Under the pieces are notes generated by a model. The model was not told where the DNA came from and did no database searches. It worked only from the letters and a program-made list of their open reading frames with translations. 64,000 nt of DNA from Chakrabartia godavariana. Its GTDB lineage: Bacteria > Pseudomonadota > Alphaproteobacteria > Sphingomonadales > Sphingomonadaceae. Both the position numbers and the translations under genes were made by a program. How positions within the stretch are numbered: the first letter of the stretch is position 1; the number at the start of each line of letters is the position of its first letter. The DNA is taken from assembly GCA_005518185.1 (NCBI GenBank), contig RKSN01000001.1, positions 248,001 to 312,000 of the forward strand. Reading direction: 5' to 3'. This document shows, piece after piece, positions 39,946 to 44,905 of this stretch.

Positions 39946-40932
39946 ATGCTGAAGAAGATCGTCGCGGCGCTTGTCGCGCTGTCGGCCGGGCTGGCCGCGC
40001 CCGCGCTGGCGCGGGTCGAAAAGATGACCGTGCACAGCGCTTCGGTTGAGGGCAATCTGGAGGGCAATACCGCAGACCGCACTGTCTTCGTCATCCTGCC
40101 CGACAGCTATGACAGCGCCAGAAAGACGCGCTACCCCGTGCTTTACTTCCTCCACGGTTTCAACTCGACCGCCGCGTCCTACATGGAACGCACGAAGTTC
40201 GATGAGGCGCTCAGGGCGTCGAAGCTCGACCTCATCATTGTCGTGCCCGACAGCATGACCAAATGGGGCGGGTCGATGTATTCCAACTCGCCTACGATCG
40301 GGAATTTCGAGGACTTCATCGCCAAGGACCTTGTCGCCTGGGTCGATGGACGCTACCGGACGCGGGCGGATCGCGCGTCGCGCGGCCTCGCCGGGCATTC
40401 GATGGGCGGATATGGCACGCTCCGGCTCGGCATGAAGCATCCCGACACTTTCGGCGCGCTCTATGCCATGAACCCGTGCTGCATGATCCCCCGCACGGAC
40501 GCGCTGGCGGATCCCAAGTTTGAGAAGATGACGGTGGACGAGGCCTTGCAGGCGCCGTGGATGGAGCGCGGCAACTTCGCGGTCGCCGCCGCATGGTCGC
40601 CCAACCCCGCCAAGCCGCCCTTCTACGCCGATCTCGCGACCAAGGATGGCAAGGCAGACGCGTTCGTGCTCGCGCAATGGGCGGCCAATTCTCCGGCGGC
40701 CTTTGCCGCGCAATATGTCCCCGCCCTCCGGCAGATGGCGGGCATCGGCATCGACACGGGCGACACCGACTTTGTGAAGGCGGACGACATCCTGATCCAC
40801 GAGCAATTGCTGAAGCTTGGCGTCGCGCATGATTGGGAACTCTATGTCGGCGACCATGGCAACCGGGTCACTGAACGCTTTGGCACCGTGGTGTTGCCTT
40901 TCTTTGCCAAGCATCTGAAAGCGGGGAAATGA
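39946..40932 (+). CDS. Exported alpha/beta-hydrolase (esterase D-type)
   Basis: 328 residues with a signal peptide (cleavage after ALA, residue 22). The nucleophile elbow [12 protein letters not shown] carries Ser152, a putative Asp lies in GIDTGDTDF and a His in GDHGN. It resembles putative esterases of the PF00756 family, which include trehalose/mycolyl-type and feruloyl esterases. It lies between isovaleryl-CoA dehydrogenase and the carboxylase beta subunit (start 12 bases after ivd, stop overlapping mccB by four bases), an unusual member for this pathway; a link with ester-type leucine-derived compounds is inference. Confidence 0.8.
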
Positions 40933-42530
40933 CAGCACCCGTCCTTCCCACCAATTACACGCCCGAAGACCCCGAGACGCAGGCCCGCGCGGCGCACAAC
41001 CGCGCGCTGCGCGATGAGCTTCGCGCGCGTGTCGCCAAAGCCGCATTGGGCGGCGATGAAAAATCCCGCGACCGGCATGTCGCACGCGGCAAGCTGCTTC
41101 CCCGGGACCGCGTCGAGCATCTGCTCGATCCGGGATCGCCACTGCTCGAAATCGGGCAACTCGCGGCCAACGGCATGTATGGGGACGAAGTGCCGGGCGC
41201 GGGGATCATCACCGCCATCGGCCGCGTGTCGGGCCGCCAGTGCATGATCTTTGCCAATGACGCGACGGTCAAAGGCGGCACCTATTTCCCGATGACGGTG
41301 AAGAAGCATCTCCGCGCGCAGGAGATCGCGATGGAGAACCGGCTGCCGTGCATCTATCTGGTCGATAGCGGCGGCGCGAACCTGCCCAATCAGGCAGAGG
41401 TCTTCCCCGACCGCGATCATTTCGGGCGCTTCTTCTACAATCAGGCAAACATGTCGGCGCGCGGCATTCCGCAGATCGCCAGCGTCATGGGCAGCTGCAC
41501 GGCGGGCGGCGCCTATGTGCCGGCCATGTCCGACGAAACCGTCATCGTCCGCAATCAGGGCACGATCTTCCTCGCGGGCCCGCCGCTGGTGAAGGCCGCG
41601 ACGGGCGAGGAAATCAGCGCCGAAGATCTGGGCGGCGGCGATCTCCACGCGAAGAAGTCAGGCGTGGTCGATCATCTGGCGGAGAATGACGAACATGCGC
41701 TGACCATCGTGCGGGACATCGTCAGCCATCTGGGCGCAGGCGAGACATTCAAGGTCGAAACGCGTGATCCGCGCCCGCCCAAATATGATCCCGAAGAGCT
41801 GTACGGCATCATCCCGCAGGACGTGCGTGCGCCCTATGACGTGCATGAGGTGATCGCGCGCATCGTCGACGGCAGCGAGTTCCATGAATTCAAGGCGCAT
41901 TATGGCAGCACGCTTGTCTGCGGCTTTGCCCATATCTGGGGGATGCCCGTCGCGATCCTTGCAAACAACGGCGTGCTGTTCAGCGAAAGCGCGCAGAAGG
42001 GCGCGCACTTCATCGAGCTGGCGCAGCAGCGGCGCATCCCCCTCCTCTTCCTCCAGAACATCTCTGGCTTCATGGTCGGCGGCAAATATGAGGCGGAAGG
42101 CATTGCCAAACATGGGGCAAAGCTCGTGACGGCCGTTGCCACCGCGTCGGTGCCCAAGATCACCGTGCTCATCGGTGGGTCATTCGGCGCGGGCAATTAC
42201 GGCATGTGCGGCCGTGCCTATCAGCCGCGCTTCCTCTTCACCTGGCCCAATGCGCGCATTTCCGTGATGGGTGGCGAGCAGGCGGCCAGCGTGCTGGCGA
42301 CCGTCCACCGCGATGCCGACAAATGGTCACCCGAGGAGGCAGAGGCCTTCAAGGCGCCGATCCGCCAGAAGTACGAGGATGAGGGCAACCCCTATTACGC
42401 CACCGCGCGGCTTTGGGATGACGGGATCATCGATCCGGCGCAGACACGCGATGTGCTGGGGCTGGCGCTGGCGGCTGCGCTGAACGCGCCGATGGATGAG
42501 GGGGCACGCTTTGGCGTGTTCCGGATGTGA
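40929..42530 (+). CDS. mccB: Methylcrotonyl-CoA carboxylase, carboxyltransferase (beta) subunit
   Basis: 533 residues. Transfers CO2 from biotin to 3-methylcrotonyl-CoA, giving 3-methylglutaconyl-CoA. The oxyanion-hole region [42 protein letters not shown] and [19 protein letters not shown] match MCC beta rather than propionyl-CoA carboxylase. Starts in the ATGA overlap with the esterase. The alpha subunit is separated from it by the DUF559 element. Confidence 0.94.
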
Positions 42531-42553: not shown

Positions 42554-42612
42554 ATCCTCCCCGAGCTTGCCTCGGGGAGGGGGACCGCCGCCATCGGCGG
42601 TGGTGGAGGGGC
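42554..42612. repeat. Left inverted repeat of the DUF559 element
   Basis: The 59 bases read as two consecutive hairpins: tcctccccgag/ctcggggagga and ccgcc/ggcgg. Apart from one base, the first 36 bases match the reverse complement of the right repeat (42986-43046). Confidence 0.9.
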
Positions 42613-42617
42613 CTTCC

Positions 42618-43064
42618 GTGCTTAAGGATCAAGCGCCGAAAGCAGACAATCGCACTGTCGCCCGTGCGCGGAGGTTGCGCCGCGAGATGAGCTTGCCCGA
42701 AGTCCTCCTTTGGCGCTTGCTGCGGGGACAACCGCAGGGAATGAAGTTTCGGCGGCAGCATCCCTCAGGCGATTTCATCCTGGACTTCTATTGCAGCGAT
42801 GCACGGCTGTGCGTTGAGATTGATGGGATTTCCCACGACATGGACAATCGTCCGGCGCGCGATGAGCGGCGCGATACATGGCTAAAGGCGGAAGGAATTG
42901 AGACGGTGCGCATTGCGGCAGAGGATGTGCTGAGAGATGCGACGGCTGTTGCCGACGGCCTCATTGCGATCGCACGATCGCGCCTGCCCCTCCACCACCC
43001 TGCAAATGCAGGGCGGTCCCCCTCCCCGAGACAAGCTCGGGGAGGATGGGAGGCAACCGCATGA
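42618..43064 (+). CDS. DUF559 (Vsr-like PD-(D/E)XK nuclease fold) protein
   Basis: About 148 residues from GTG 42618; TTG at 42567 and ATG at 42687 are alternatives. The core runs LRREMSLPEVLLWRLLRGQ, FRRQHPSGDFILDFYC and LCVEIDGISHDMDN, with the DFxxDFY and EID acidic residues typical of the endonuclease-like DUF559 fold related to Vsr. The reading frame begins just after, or inside, the left inverted repeat and its last 25 codons are written by the right repeat. Its stop overlaps the start of the carboxylase alpha gene. Function of the family is unknown. Confidence 0.78.
   Translation: MLKDQAPKADNRTVARARRLRREMSLPEVLLWRLLRGQPQGMKFRRQHPSGDFILDFYCSDARLCVEIDGISHDMDNRPARDERRDTWLKAEGIETVRIAAEDVLRDATAVADGLIAIARSRLPLHHPANAGRSPSPRQARGGWEATA
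42986..43046. repeat. Right inverted repeat of the DUF559 element
   Basis: Reverse complement of the left repeat (42554-42612) with one mismatch in the outer 36 bases; the inner hairpin differs in loop sequence (ccctgca/tgcaggg in place of ccgcc/ggcgg) but still pairs. Confidence 0.9.
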
Positions 43065-44905
43065 TCACCTCTCTCCTCATCGCCAATCGCGGGGAAATTG
43101 CCTGCCGGATCATCCGCACGGCGCGGGACATGGGCATTCGCACCGTTGCCGTCTTTTCGGATGCGGACCGCAACGCGCTGCATGTGCGGGAAGCGGATCA
43201 GGCGGTGCATATCGGGCCATCGCCGGCGCGCGAAAGCTATCTGGTCGGGGAGCGCATCATCGCTGCCGCCCGGGCTGCGGGTGCCGAGGCGATCCATCCC
43301 GGTTACGGCTTCCTGTCCGAAAATGCCGCCTTTGCGCAGGCCGTCCTTGATGCAGGGCTGATCTGGGTCGGGCCGCGCCCTGCCAGCATCACCGCGATGG
43401 GCCTGAAGGATGCCGCCAAGGCACTGATGGCGGAGGCGGGCGTGCCCGTGACGCCGGGCTATATGGGGGACAATCAGGACCCGGCCTTCCTTGCGGCCGA
43501 GGCGGAGAAGATCGGCTATCCCGTCCTCATCAAGGCGGTCGCGGGTGGCGGCGGGAAGGGGATGCGCAAGGTCGAGGCGGCAGCGGACTTTGCAGATAGC
43601 CTTGCGTCCTGCCAGCGCGAGGCGGCGGCCTCGTTCGGCAACGATCATGTGCTGATCGAGAAGTATATCCAGACGCCGCGCCATATCGAGGTGCAGGTGT
43701 TCGGCGATACGCATGGCAATATCGTCCATCTGTTTGAGCGCGACTGCTCGCTGCAGCGCCGCCACCAGAAGGTGATCGAGGAAGCGCCTGCGCCGGGCAT
43801 GGACGCGGCCACCCGCGCGCAGCTCTGCGCCGCGGCCGTCCGGGCGGCCAAGGCGGTCGATTATGTCGGCGCGGGCACGATCGAATTCATCGCCGATGCG
43901 TCCGAAGGCCTGCGCGCCGACCGCATCTGGTTCATGGAAATGAACACGCGGCTTCAGGTCGAGCATCCGGTGACCGAAGAGATCACGGGCGTCGATCTCG
44001 TCGAATGGCAGCTGCGCGTGGCCTCGGGCGAACCGCTGCCGGTGTCGCAGGATGCGCTTTCCATCAACGGCTGGGCGATGGAAGCGCGGCTTTATGCCGA
44101 AGACCCGGCCAAGGGCTTCCTGCCCTCGATCGGGCGGCTTGATCTGTTCCAGCCGGGCGAGGGGCTGGGCGGGCGCGTCGATACGGGCGTCACCGAAGGC
44201 GCGGAGGTCTCGCCCTTCTACGATCCGATGATCGCCAAGCTGATCGCGCATGGCGACACGCGCGATGAGGCGCGGGAGCTTCTGTCAGAGATGCTGCATG
44301 AGAGCGCCATCTGGCCGGTGAAGACCAACGCGGCGTTCCTTATCAACGCGCTGGCACATCCCGACTTTGCGGCAGGCGCGGTGGATACCGGGCTGATTGG
44401 CCGCGACGGGGAGGCGATGGCAGCGCAACCCGTTCCGTCCGCCCATGCGCTGACGCGCGCGGCGATGGCGATGGTGCCCAAGTCCGCTTTTGCCGGGTTC
44501 CGGCTCAACGCGCCCGACAAGCGCGCGGCACCGTTCCTGCTCGATGGAGAACGGGTTGAAGTAGCGCTGCACGGCCCCGGTGAGGATGCGCCTGCGCCCT
44601 CCATGCTGGTGGCGGAAGGCGGCGCGGTCTGGGTGCTCGCGCCCTATCGCTTTGATGGCAGCCATGGCGGCAGCGCGGCGGATGGCGACATCCTTTCCCC
44701 CATGCCGGGCAAGGTCATTGCCGTTATGGTGGCGGCAGGGGCGGCGGTTACCAAGGGGCAGAAGCTCCTCACGCTCGAAGCGATGAAGATGGAGCACACG
44801 CTTGTCGCGCCATTTGATGGCGTGGTGGCGGAGCTCAACGCCGCGGCCGGCGCGCAGGTGCAGGTGGAGGCGTTGCTCGCCCGGATCGAACCGACGGCCG
44901 CCTGA
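43061..44905 (+). CDS. mccA: Methylcrotonyl-CoA carboxylase, biotin carboxylase/BCCP (alpha) subunit
   Basis: 614 residues from ATG 43061 (GGGAGG seven bases before; an in-frame ATG at 43046 is less likely). Biotin carboxylase domain about 1-450: ITSLLIANRGEIACRII start, GGGGKGMR ATP-grasp loop, and the FMEMNTRLQVEHPVTE motif. C-terminal biotinyl domain with EAMKMEHT; the biotinyl lysine is Lys576. With mccB it forms the leucine-pathway carboxylase. Hydratase and HMG-CoA lyase genes are not adjacent. Confidence 0.95.
   Translation: MITSLLIANRGEIACRIIRTARDMGIRTVAVFSDADRNALHVREADQAVHIGPSPARESYLVGERIIAAARAAGAEAIHPGYGFLSENAAFAQAVLDAGLIWVGPRPASITAMGLKDAAKALMAEAGVPVTPGYMGDNQDPAFLAAEAEKIGYPVLIKAVAGGGGKGMRKVEAAADFADSLASCQREAAASFGNDHVLIEKYIQTPRHIEVQVFGDTHGNIVHLFERDCSLQRRHQKVIEEAPAPGMDAATRAQLCAAAVRAAKAVDYVGAGTIEFIADASEGLRADRIWFMEMNTRLQVEHPVTEEITGVDLVEWQLRVASGEPLPVSQDALSINGWAMEARLYAEDPAKGFLPSIGRLDLFQPGEGLGGRVDTGVTEGAEVSPFYDPMIAKLIAHGDTRDEARELLSEMLHESAIWPVKTNAAFLINALAHPDFAAGAVDTGLIGRDGEAMAAQPVPSAHALTRAAMAMVPKSAFAGFRLNAPDKRAAPFLLDGERVEVALHGPGEDAPAPSMLVAEGGAVWVLAPYRFDGSHGGSAADGDILSPMPGKVIAVMVAAGAAVTKGQKLLTLEAMKMEHTLVAPFDGVVAELNAAAGAQVQVEALLARIEPTAA

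Follow-up and report, generated by a model that had tools for sequence, protein, structure and literature searches.

The window analysed here, the whole stretch of 64,000 nucleotides from Chakrabartia godavariana, contains a DUF559 gene that is enclosed by inverted two-hairpin repeats and occupies the mccB-mccA gap of an operon (Table 1). Do the gene and the repeats belong together, and, if so, what kind of element do they form? A sequence-only reading had described a compact element that ties a Vsr-like nuclease to REP-like palindromes, in a layout resembling that of REP/RAYT systems but with an unrelated nuclease. The results below support this description.

Table 1. Features of the DUF559 unit and its neighbours; positions refer to the window.
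Feature	Position	Strand	Basis and remarks
mccB-like carboxyltransferase subunit gene, left neighbour	40929..42530	+	ORF list; name by reading and from the sequence-only reading; C-terminus matched beside mccA in the loci of 11 relatives plus the own locus
Left REP-like repeat	42554..42612	+	59 nt; inverted-repeat search, DNA fold z -4.63
Left hairpin A	42556-42580
Left hairpin B	42584-42601
Left G-rich tail	42602-42612		faces the gene
DUF559 (PF04480) nuclease gene, longest frame	42567..43064	+	ORF list, Pfam E 1.2e-25, sequence
DUF559 domain	42654..42962	+	predicted fold nearest NGO0050, homing endonuclease I-Bth0305I, Vsr
Right REP-like repeat, inverted	42986..43047	-	62 nt; inverted-repeat search, DNA fold z -5.22
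Right G-rich tail	42986-42993		faces the gene
Right hairpin B	42994-43017
Right hairpin A	43021-43045
mccA-like biotin carboxylase subunit gene, right neighbour	43061..44905	+	ORF list, relatives

The DUF559 unit in the mccB-mccA gap

The arms, the folds and the Pfam match all uphold the claimed arrangement, in which inverted two-hairpin repeats enclose a DUF559 gene in the space between mccB and mccA. The outer inverted arms (42554-42589 and 43012-43047) are 36 nt long and 97% complementary, confirming the reported agreement in 35 of 36 outer bases, and the inner arms (42599-42612 and 42986-42999) are 14 nt long and 100% complementary. Repeat lengths of 59 and 61 bases had been given; the left value held, and the right repeat measured 62 nt. 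Both repeats form two hairpins each, and none of 200 shuffled sequences folded equally well. The inverted-repeat (IR) score, defined as the best inverted repeat from 250 nt upstream to 250 nt downstream of the domain, was 39.5 for the window unit versus a maximum of 11.0 over 20 shuffles. Hairpin A is near-identical on the left and on the right. Hairpin B had been said to differ in sequence while staying paired by compensatory change; this held, and its length differs too. Among 32 window-type repeats, whose selection criteria included their hairpin A, compensatory changes were found in three of the four predicted hairpin B pairs.

The DUF559 frame has a length of 498 nt. As had been claimed, it starts within or beside the left repeat, and its C-terminal tail is encoded across the right one. 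The longest form uses a TTG at 42567, inside the left repeat; in our reading, the GTG at 42618, directly past this repeat, is the likelier start. The stop codon TGA (43062-43064) overlaps the mccA ATG at 43061, giving an ATGA at window positions 43061-43064, and the mccA start lies 13 nt beyond the right repeat. It is conceivable that, through translational coupling at this overlap, the insert preserves the translation of mccA.

With 89.9 bits against PF04480, for which the curated Pfam cut-off is 20.6, the window protein qualifies as a member of the family. The conserved putative active-site residues are intact, as all eight positions that are invariant across 54 sequences are kept (R38, E45, D73, F74, E84, D86, H90, and D99); nuclease activity itself is inferred. 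An AlphaFold2 model of the protein (mean pLDDT of 82.6) matched NGO0050 (3hrl) with a Z score of 14.3, the catalytic domain of the homing endonuclease I-Bth0305I (3r3p_A) with a Z score of 12.1 (rmsd 2.6, 96 residues), and Vsr with a Z score of 10.0. Mitoribosomal chains also scored highly, which we read as a common fold only. The model predicts a PD-(D/E)XK enzyme with the fold of Vsr and EDxHD homing endonucleases, and catalysis remains an inference.

Among 30 mccA-like loci, 29 of them from relatives, the mccB C-terminus lay within the fetched flank in 12, namely the own locus and those of 11 relatives; the other 18 had no mccB C-terminus in reach and were left out. The gaps in the 11 relatives measured 7, 9, 16, 18, 67, 322, 507, 511, 526, 813, and 814 nt. 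The statement that mccB and mccA are normally adjacent therefore held only partly, for the five relatives with gaps of 7 to 67 nt. A tblastn search with the window DUF559 protein at 1e-4 gave no match in the gap of any of the 11 relatives. The six gaps of 322–814 nt contain, as judged by eye, other open frames. In those of 507 and 511 nt, a GIY-YIG gene is oriented antiparallel to the operon and lies between inverted CTGAACTTGTTTCAGG-type repeats, and the 511-nt gap additionally contains one solitary window-type repeat (all by eye). The corresponding GIY-YIG profile matches are at G013:C1:955470 and G033:C2:106652. Since the gaps of relatives hold a GIY-YIG gene or a solitary repeat, the site accepts several kinds of insert.

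DUF559 genes and their repeats across genomes

We scored the flanks of DUF559 domains at an IR threshold of 16. IR flanks were present at 82 of the 93 distinct domains sampled from the family (83/94 before removal of a duplicate) and at 18 of the 29 sampled from the class; four of the 127 family and class domains had been left out for too short flanks. By comparison, the threshold was reached by only 9 of 3100 virtual domains, that is, windows placed elsewhere within DUF559 loci, and by 2 of 152 other frames of 270–1000 nt in these loci. The two top-scoring control windows and the best of the 152 frames turned out to be GIY-YIG genes between inverted repeats. With flanks of 700 nt, 80 of 91 DUF559 domains were IR-flanked. 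The duplicate is one gene listed under two names (L073 and L121), which affects the IR-flank, synteny, orientation, and REP-similarity counts and was dropped in the 82/93 recount. The family sample was drawn from the strongest Pfam hits first and is not random. A further set of 67 loci came from a search of named genomes with the window protein; here, 51 of the 61 scorable domains reached 16, and six were excluded for short flanks. This set extends to Caulobacter and to Bacteroidota, for which 7 of 11 loci so labelled passed the threshold. Three of these seven (L222-L224) are near-identical syntenic orthologs.

The arms also have a preferred orientation. In 133 units scoring at least 20, the G-rich end faced the gene in 240 of 266 arms and pointed the opposite way in 8. 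The inverted arrangement outscored the direct one in 77/101 and 43/51 units with scores of at least 16, and the direct one was superior in 24/101 and 8/51. Some units without an inverted advantage bear one doublet per side. The constant layout, the inward orientation, and the enrichment over controls are thus shown. Of the 133 units, 21 have the stop codon of the DUF559 gene before the right arm, 39 within it, and 73 past it, indicating that reading into the right repeat is common.

The genome of C. godavariana encodes three DUF559 genes, each with palindromic repeats on both sides and with three distinct repeat sets. The second gene (L010; G000:C3:125683-125997) is an example of a unit with one REPIN-like doublet per side, the doublets being in direct orientation. 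A separate observation concerns the DUF559 gene ycjD of E. coli K-12 (L263:5041-5828), which has a REP pair at its 3' side only. The 55-nt repeat on the ycjD side is present in 5100 of 5426 E. coli genomes, with a median of 4 places among those.

Repeats without the gene, which the sequence-only reading had named as a point to check, are common as inward pairs. The pattern of the window-type hairpin, ATCCTCCCC N(2-14) GGGGAGG, matched 24 + 22 times on the two strands of the own genome, against none for the reversed-pattern control. Because a perfectly symmetric hairpin is picked up once per strand, these matches correspond to anything from 24 to 46 distinct hairpins, and the other strand sums given here contain the same double count. 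A stricter repeat pattern recovered the two window copies alone from the own genome. The window-type pattern occurred in 77 of 149 family genomes, and the reversed control in one of the 149 listed (one match, G087). Neighbouring matches less than 700 nt apart, taken from a subset of places in seven other genomes, faced inward in all 25 pairs examined. Symmetric matches that overlap themselves were left out of this count, as were genomes with matches given for one strand only (e.g., G143). Nineteen pairs were spaced by 85–152 nt, one by 269 nt, and five by 425–467 nt. As predicted beforehand, each of the five widest pairs contained a DUF559 gene, and the 269-nt pair did not. Those short inward pairs that were inspected are gene-less, REPIN-like doublets. 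The repeats are short palindromes present as numerous inverted doublets, which satisfies the REPIN definition used for comparison (PMC3116915).

One gene-less window-type doublet lies in the own genome, 0.8 kb past the window end (L305; G000:C1:312700-312960), and its halves belong to two different hairpin-B subtypes (GGCAG..CTGAC and GACC..GGT). Further REPIN-like doublets were seen inside a trmD-like frame (L307; G069:C1:1324200-1324460) and a murD-like frame (L304; G129:C1:274180-274450), the names being assigned by eye. These two doublets apparently contribute an in-frame peptide, although this reading is tentative. Rickettsia palindromic elements likewise insert in-frame peptides.

At the level of whole genomes, the repeats co-occur with DUF559. 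Hairpins of the CCCTCTCCC type numbered on average 7.1 (median 2) where DUF559 is present (127 genomes) and 0.45 (median 0) where it is absent (22 genomes), a difference with a Mann-Whitney p of 1.6e-4. Window-type strand matches averaged 21.1 per genome (median 3.5) where the best DUF559 hit reached E 1e-30 (74 genomes) and 5.8 (median 0) in 53 genomes with weaker hits only, of which the 20 with DUF559 weaker than 1e-21 had none. The 22 DUF559-less genomes averaged 1.0 (median 0), with 1–8 matches in six of them. The difference between genomes with and without DUF559 was significant (p 0.0019), and the number of window-type matches correlated with that of DUF559 genes (Spearman 0.62). Neither phylogeny nor genome size was corrected for in these tests. 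Every one of the 36 REP-rich genomes (≥10 matches) had DUF559, and 12 of the 36 had Y1_Tnp, the RAYT-family domain. Co-occurrence at genome level is shown by these counts.

Cognate repeats and movement

Similar nucleases are accompanied by similar repeats. Over 8114 non-syntenic pairs, REP similarity rose with DUF559 identity (rho 0.364; maximum of 300 permutations, 0.083), from a mean of 0.245 at 30–40% identity to 0.635 above 65%. Within single genomes, the correlation was non-significant (49 pairs, rho 0.23, p 0.11); there, the two arms of one unit matched at 16 or more in 54 of 60 cases, and arms of different units in 52 of 196. Among DUF559 pairs at least 70% identical, 60 of 72 share both flanks (59/71 without the duplicate). 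Because close pairs are mostly syntenic, we conclude that gene-bearing units rarely move and are mostly inherited in place.

Genome G158 departs from this pattern and carries three copies of a unit at unrelated sites. Two of them are 96.3% identical over 491 nt. Their likeness stops 28 and 13 nt outside the hairpins, and the flanks are unrelated. In the sister genome G079, the flanks of one of these sites are matched with 92 and 94% identity up to 8 and 23 nt short of the unit. G079 has no DUF559 unit there but different DNA that contains an open frame. Unit duplication with unrelated flanks and unit-less sites in relatives are thus shown, and so is the association of DUF559 with the repeats; cutting and copying are inferred. 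Other small open frames occupy the mccB-mccA gap and the G158 site in relatives (L017, L023, L267; G002, G035, G079), and both places may possibly be intergenic insertion hotspots.

A precise empty allele was not found for any gene-bearing unit, neither at the G158/G079 site nor at the E. coli ycjD site. The former was rejected as such an allele, as the sister's other DNA documents absence only. In E. coli, 3333 of 5426 genomes cover 80% or more of the fabI-ycjD-sapF query. A clean empty allele was rejected here as well, as a TetR/RND efflux cluster adjoins fabI, which amounts to a replacement; this rests on two inspected strains, both matching fabI only. For the REPIN in the trmD-like frame, an empty allele was sought in its genus (three genomes only) and the matter remained unresolved. 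Target-site duplications of 3–9 nt showed no excess over shuffled flanks in 102 units. The unit ends are known to a few nucleotides only, so that short duplications could have escaped notice.

Mobility, which the sequence-only reading had merely inferred, is now supported by the near-identical G158 units at unrelated sites, by the absence of the unit from one of these sites in G079, and by the many gene-less doublets. The same reading had named empty alleles ending exactly at the repeats as a further check, and these were not found for gene-bearing units. Two outcomes would have refuted it. The first, DUF559 at the same place in all relatives, is excluded by its absence from the gap in all 11; the second, a lack of statistical association between repeats and DUF559, is excluded by the strong association in several counts.

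Explanations and related systems

On balance, we favour a REPIN-type system with DUF559 as its enzyme, and we hold this view with modest confidence. It is the simplest account of the layout, the orientation, the gene-less doublets, the co-occurrence, and the G158 copies. Several results weigh against it: the synteny of most close DUF559 pairs, the non-significant correlation within single genomes, the units in which the direct arrangement scores higher, the enrichment of Y1_Tnp in REP-rich genomes and the inverted repeats at some Y1_Tnp loci, the lack of a target duplication, the matches in six DUF559-less genomes, and the one-sided REP pair of ycjD. The REP-DUF559-REP unit would be one copy of a short nuclease-bearing element, and the dispersed gene-less inverted doublets in the same genomes would be its non-autonomous derivatives. 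The DUF559 protein would recognise the folded REP pair and cut there or at a target. Through host replication and repair, a copy of the doublet, or on rare occasions of the unit with its gene, would arise at another intergenic site, with no target duplication left behind. That the nuclease acts on these repeats and drives their spread, as well as the copy step itself, is inferred.

Like REPIN/RAYT systems, the DUF559 system combines short palindromic repeats in inverted doublets and many copies with one small enzyme gene beside or between its own repeats, and the gene is inherited mostly vertically. It differs in the enzyme, which is of the PD-(D/E)XK type and not an HUH Y1 transposase. TnpA-REP REPs carry a GT[AG]G 5' of the hairpin foot (PMC6006769), which, as judged by eye, is absent from both window repeats. 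No PF01797 (Y1_Tnp) match was found in the own genome, so that the HUH Y1 transposase expected of a REP/RAYT system is missing. As both the enzyme and the hairpin-foot tetranucleotide were tested and differ, we regard the DUF559 system as analogous to REPIN/RAYT and not as a member of it. Alphaproteobacteria have no or only few tnpA-Y1 genes per genome (PMC6006769).

The Y1_Tnp loci themselves were inspected for repeats. Neither of the two searched REP types was present in the fetched flanks (up to 1.5 kb) of 28 such loci. None of 20 loci was IR-flanked within 250 nt of the domain, and 6 of 20 were within 700 nt, compared with 57 of 1409 control windows. We dropped these loci as a gene-family control, as the gene is longer than the searched domain and the 700-nt flank reveals the six. 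Given the absence of the two REP types from the 28 loci, the inverted repeats of Y1_Tnp must be of other sequence, as might be expected if RAYTs own separate REPs.

The alternative that survives best, and which remains possible, is that a RAYT/TnpA-REP or an unknown enzyme moves the REPs, and that DUF559 is cargo that, like some insertion sequences, settles or survives within REPINs already present. The gene occupies the spacer of the doublet, where insertion into a REPIN would equally place it, and close DUF559 homologs are mostly syntenic. Moreover, Y1_Tnp is enriched in REP-rich genomes (12/24 versus 24/125, p 0.0031), for which we offer no explanation. Against this alternative, a Y1_Tnp match is missing from 24 of the 36 REP-rich genomes, among them that of C. 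godavariana, whereas all 36 have DUF559. The two searched REP types are missing from the fetched flanks of 28/28 Y1_Tnp loci, the flanking REPs follow DUF559 identity across genomes, and the window repeats lack the tetranucleotide of TnpA-REP REPs (PMC6006769; by eye).

A second alternative, which we consider unlikely, is a homing-like or gene-drive DUF559. It would cut alleles that lack it, and recombination between homologous flanks would copy it in. The REPs would then serve as recombination ends or protect the carrier, and the REPINs would be scars or decoys, not independent movers. In its favour, I-Bth0305I is among the nearest solved folds, and a DUF559 gene has been placed in the EDxHD homing family (PMC9403480). 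The E-x-D-x3-H-x8-D pattern of these endonucleases is conserved in DUF559, along with the predicted fold. In evolving Legionella pneumophila, intergenic GIY-YIG flanks are recombination hotspots, and so are segments with a transposase and DUF559 (PMC12308824). In contrast to EDxHD homing endonucleases, DUF559 is free-standing between REPs and was not seen in an intron or intein. Homing alone targets one allele, which argues against this alternative in view of the REPIN-like doublets and the G158 copies at unrelated sites.

Even less probable is a mismatch or VSP-type repair nuclease that has been domesticated and resembles VsrA of Caulobacter; on this view, the REPs merely end transcription or stabilise mRNA next to a small gene of the host. 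VsrA (CCNA_02930) bears a DUF559 domain and is linked to DNA damage when a cytosine methyltransferase is absent (PMC12907096), and the predicted fold of the window protein matches that of the Vsr mismatch endonucleases. A text search of that paper for 'palindrom' gave no match. Terminators, however, need neither matching inward arms on both sides nor a genome-wide tracking of DUF559 numbers, and the three DUF559 genes of the own genome carry three different repeat sets. Finally, a chance or selection effect, by which any small gene would look flanked where GC-rich palindromes are common between genes, can draw on the frequency of REP-like palindromes in many genomes and on a family sample taken from the strongest Pfam hits, but is refuted for the association by the 9/3100 control windows and 2/152 similar-size frames and is practically ruled out.

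The favoured REPIN-type unit also shares features with MITEs and insertion sequences with terminal inverted repeats, i.e., a gene between inverted repeats and gene-less derivatives. It differs from them by the lack of a transposase, by hairpin-rich REP ends, and by the absence of a detectable target duplication. Searches of one open-access library turned up no report that ties DUF559 or GIY-YIG genes to REP-like repeats; subscription papers and bioRxiv preprints fell largely outside their scope. The nearest item was the Legionella study (PMC12308824).

If DUF559 maintains REP-like repeats, the palindromes of RAYT-less genomes gain a candidate engine, and a large 'domain of unknown function' family gains a predicted substrate, its own flanking hairpin pair. 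The spread of REPINs would become approachable via a small enzyme unrelated to transposases. The association itself consists of counts with controls and can be repeated on any genome collection.

The GIY-YIG genes show a parallel layout. Stand-alone GIY-YIG genes lay between inverted palindromic repeats in 23 of 29 scored family loci (L233-L262), as judged against controls drawn from DUF559 loci. They resemble DUF559 in these flanks and in filling the same mccB-mccA gap in two relatives (G013, G033), but differ in the repeat sequences, which belong to other families, e.g., CCGTTCGTCCTGAGC..., GTCATGCTGAACTTGTTTCAGCATCC, and GTCATTCCCGCGAAGGCGGGAATCC. The GIY-YIG fold is unrelated to that of DUF559. 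The layout hints at a wider class of nuclease-repeat arrangements, a suggestion that we make with caution. A bolder reading, for which the evidence seems to us evenly balanced, is that REP/REPIN populations arose not on the HUH RAYT alone but also on two or more other, unrelated nuclease folds. Among these would be the Vsr/homing-type PD-(D/E)XK fold of DUF559 and GIY-YIG, and it is just as undecided whether each nuclease acts on its own family of hairpin repeats. If true, this would account for the many palindromic repeats found in alphaproteobacteria with few RAYTs, with DUF559 versions reaching Bacteroidota and GIY-YIG as a second candidate engine. GIY-YIG units of this layout include those in the L020 and L024 gaps, at L102:550, and at L088:7550. 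The own genome contains nine GIY-YIG matches, one of them within a 652-aa frame.
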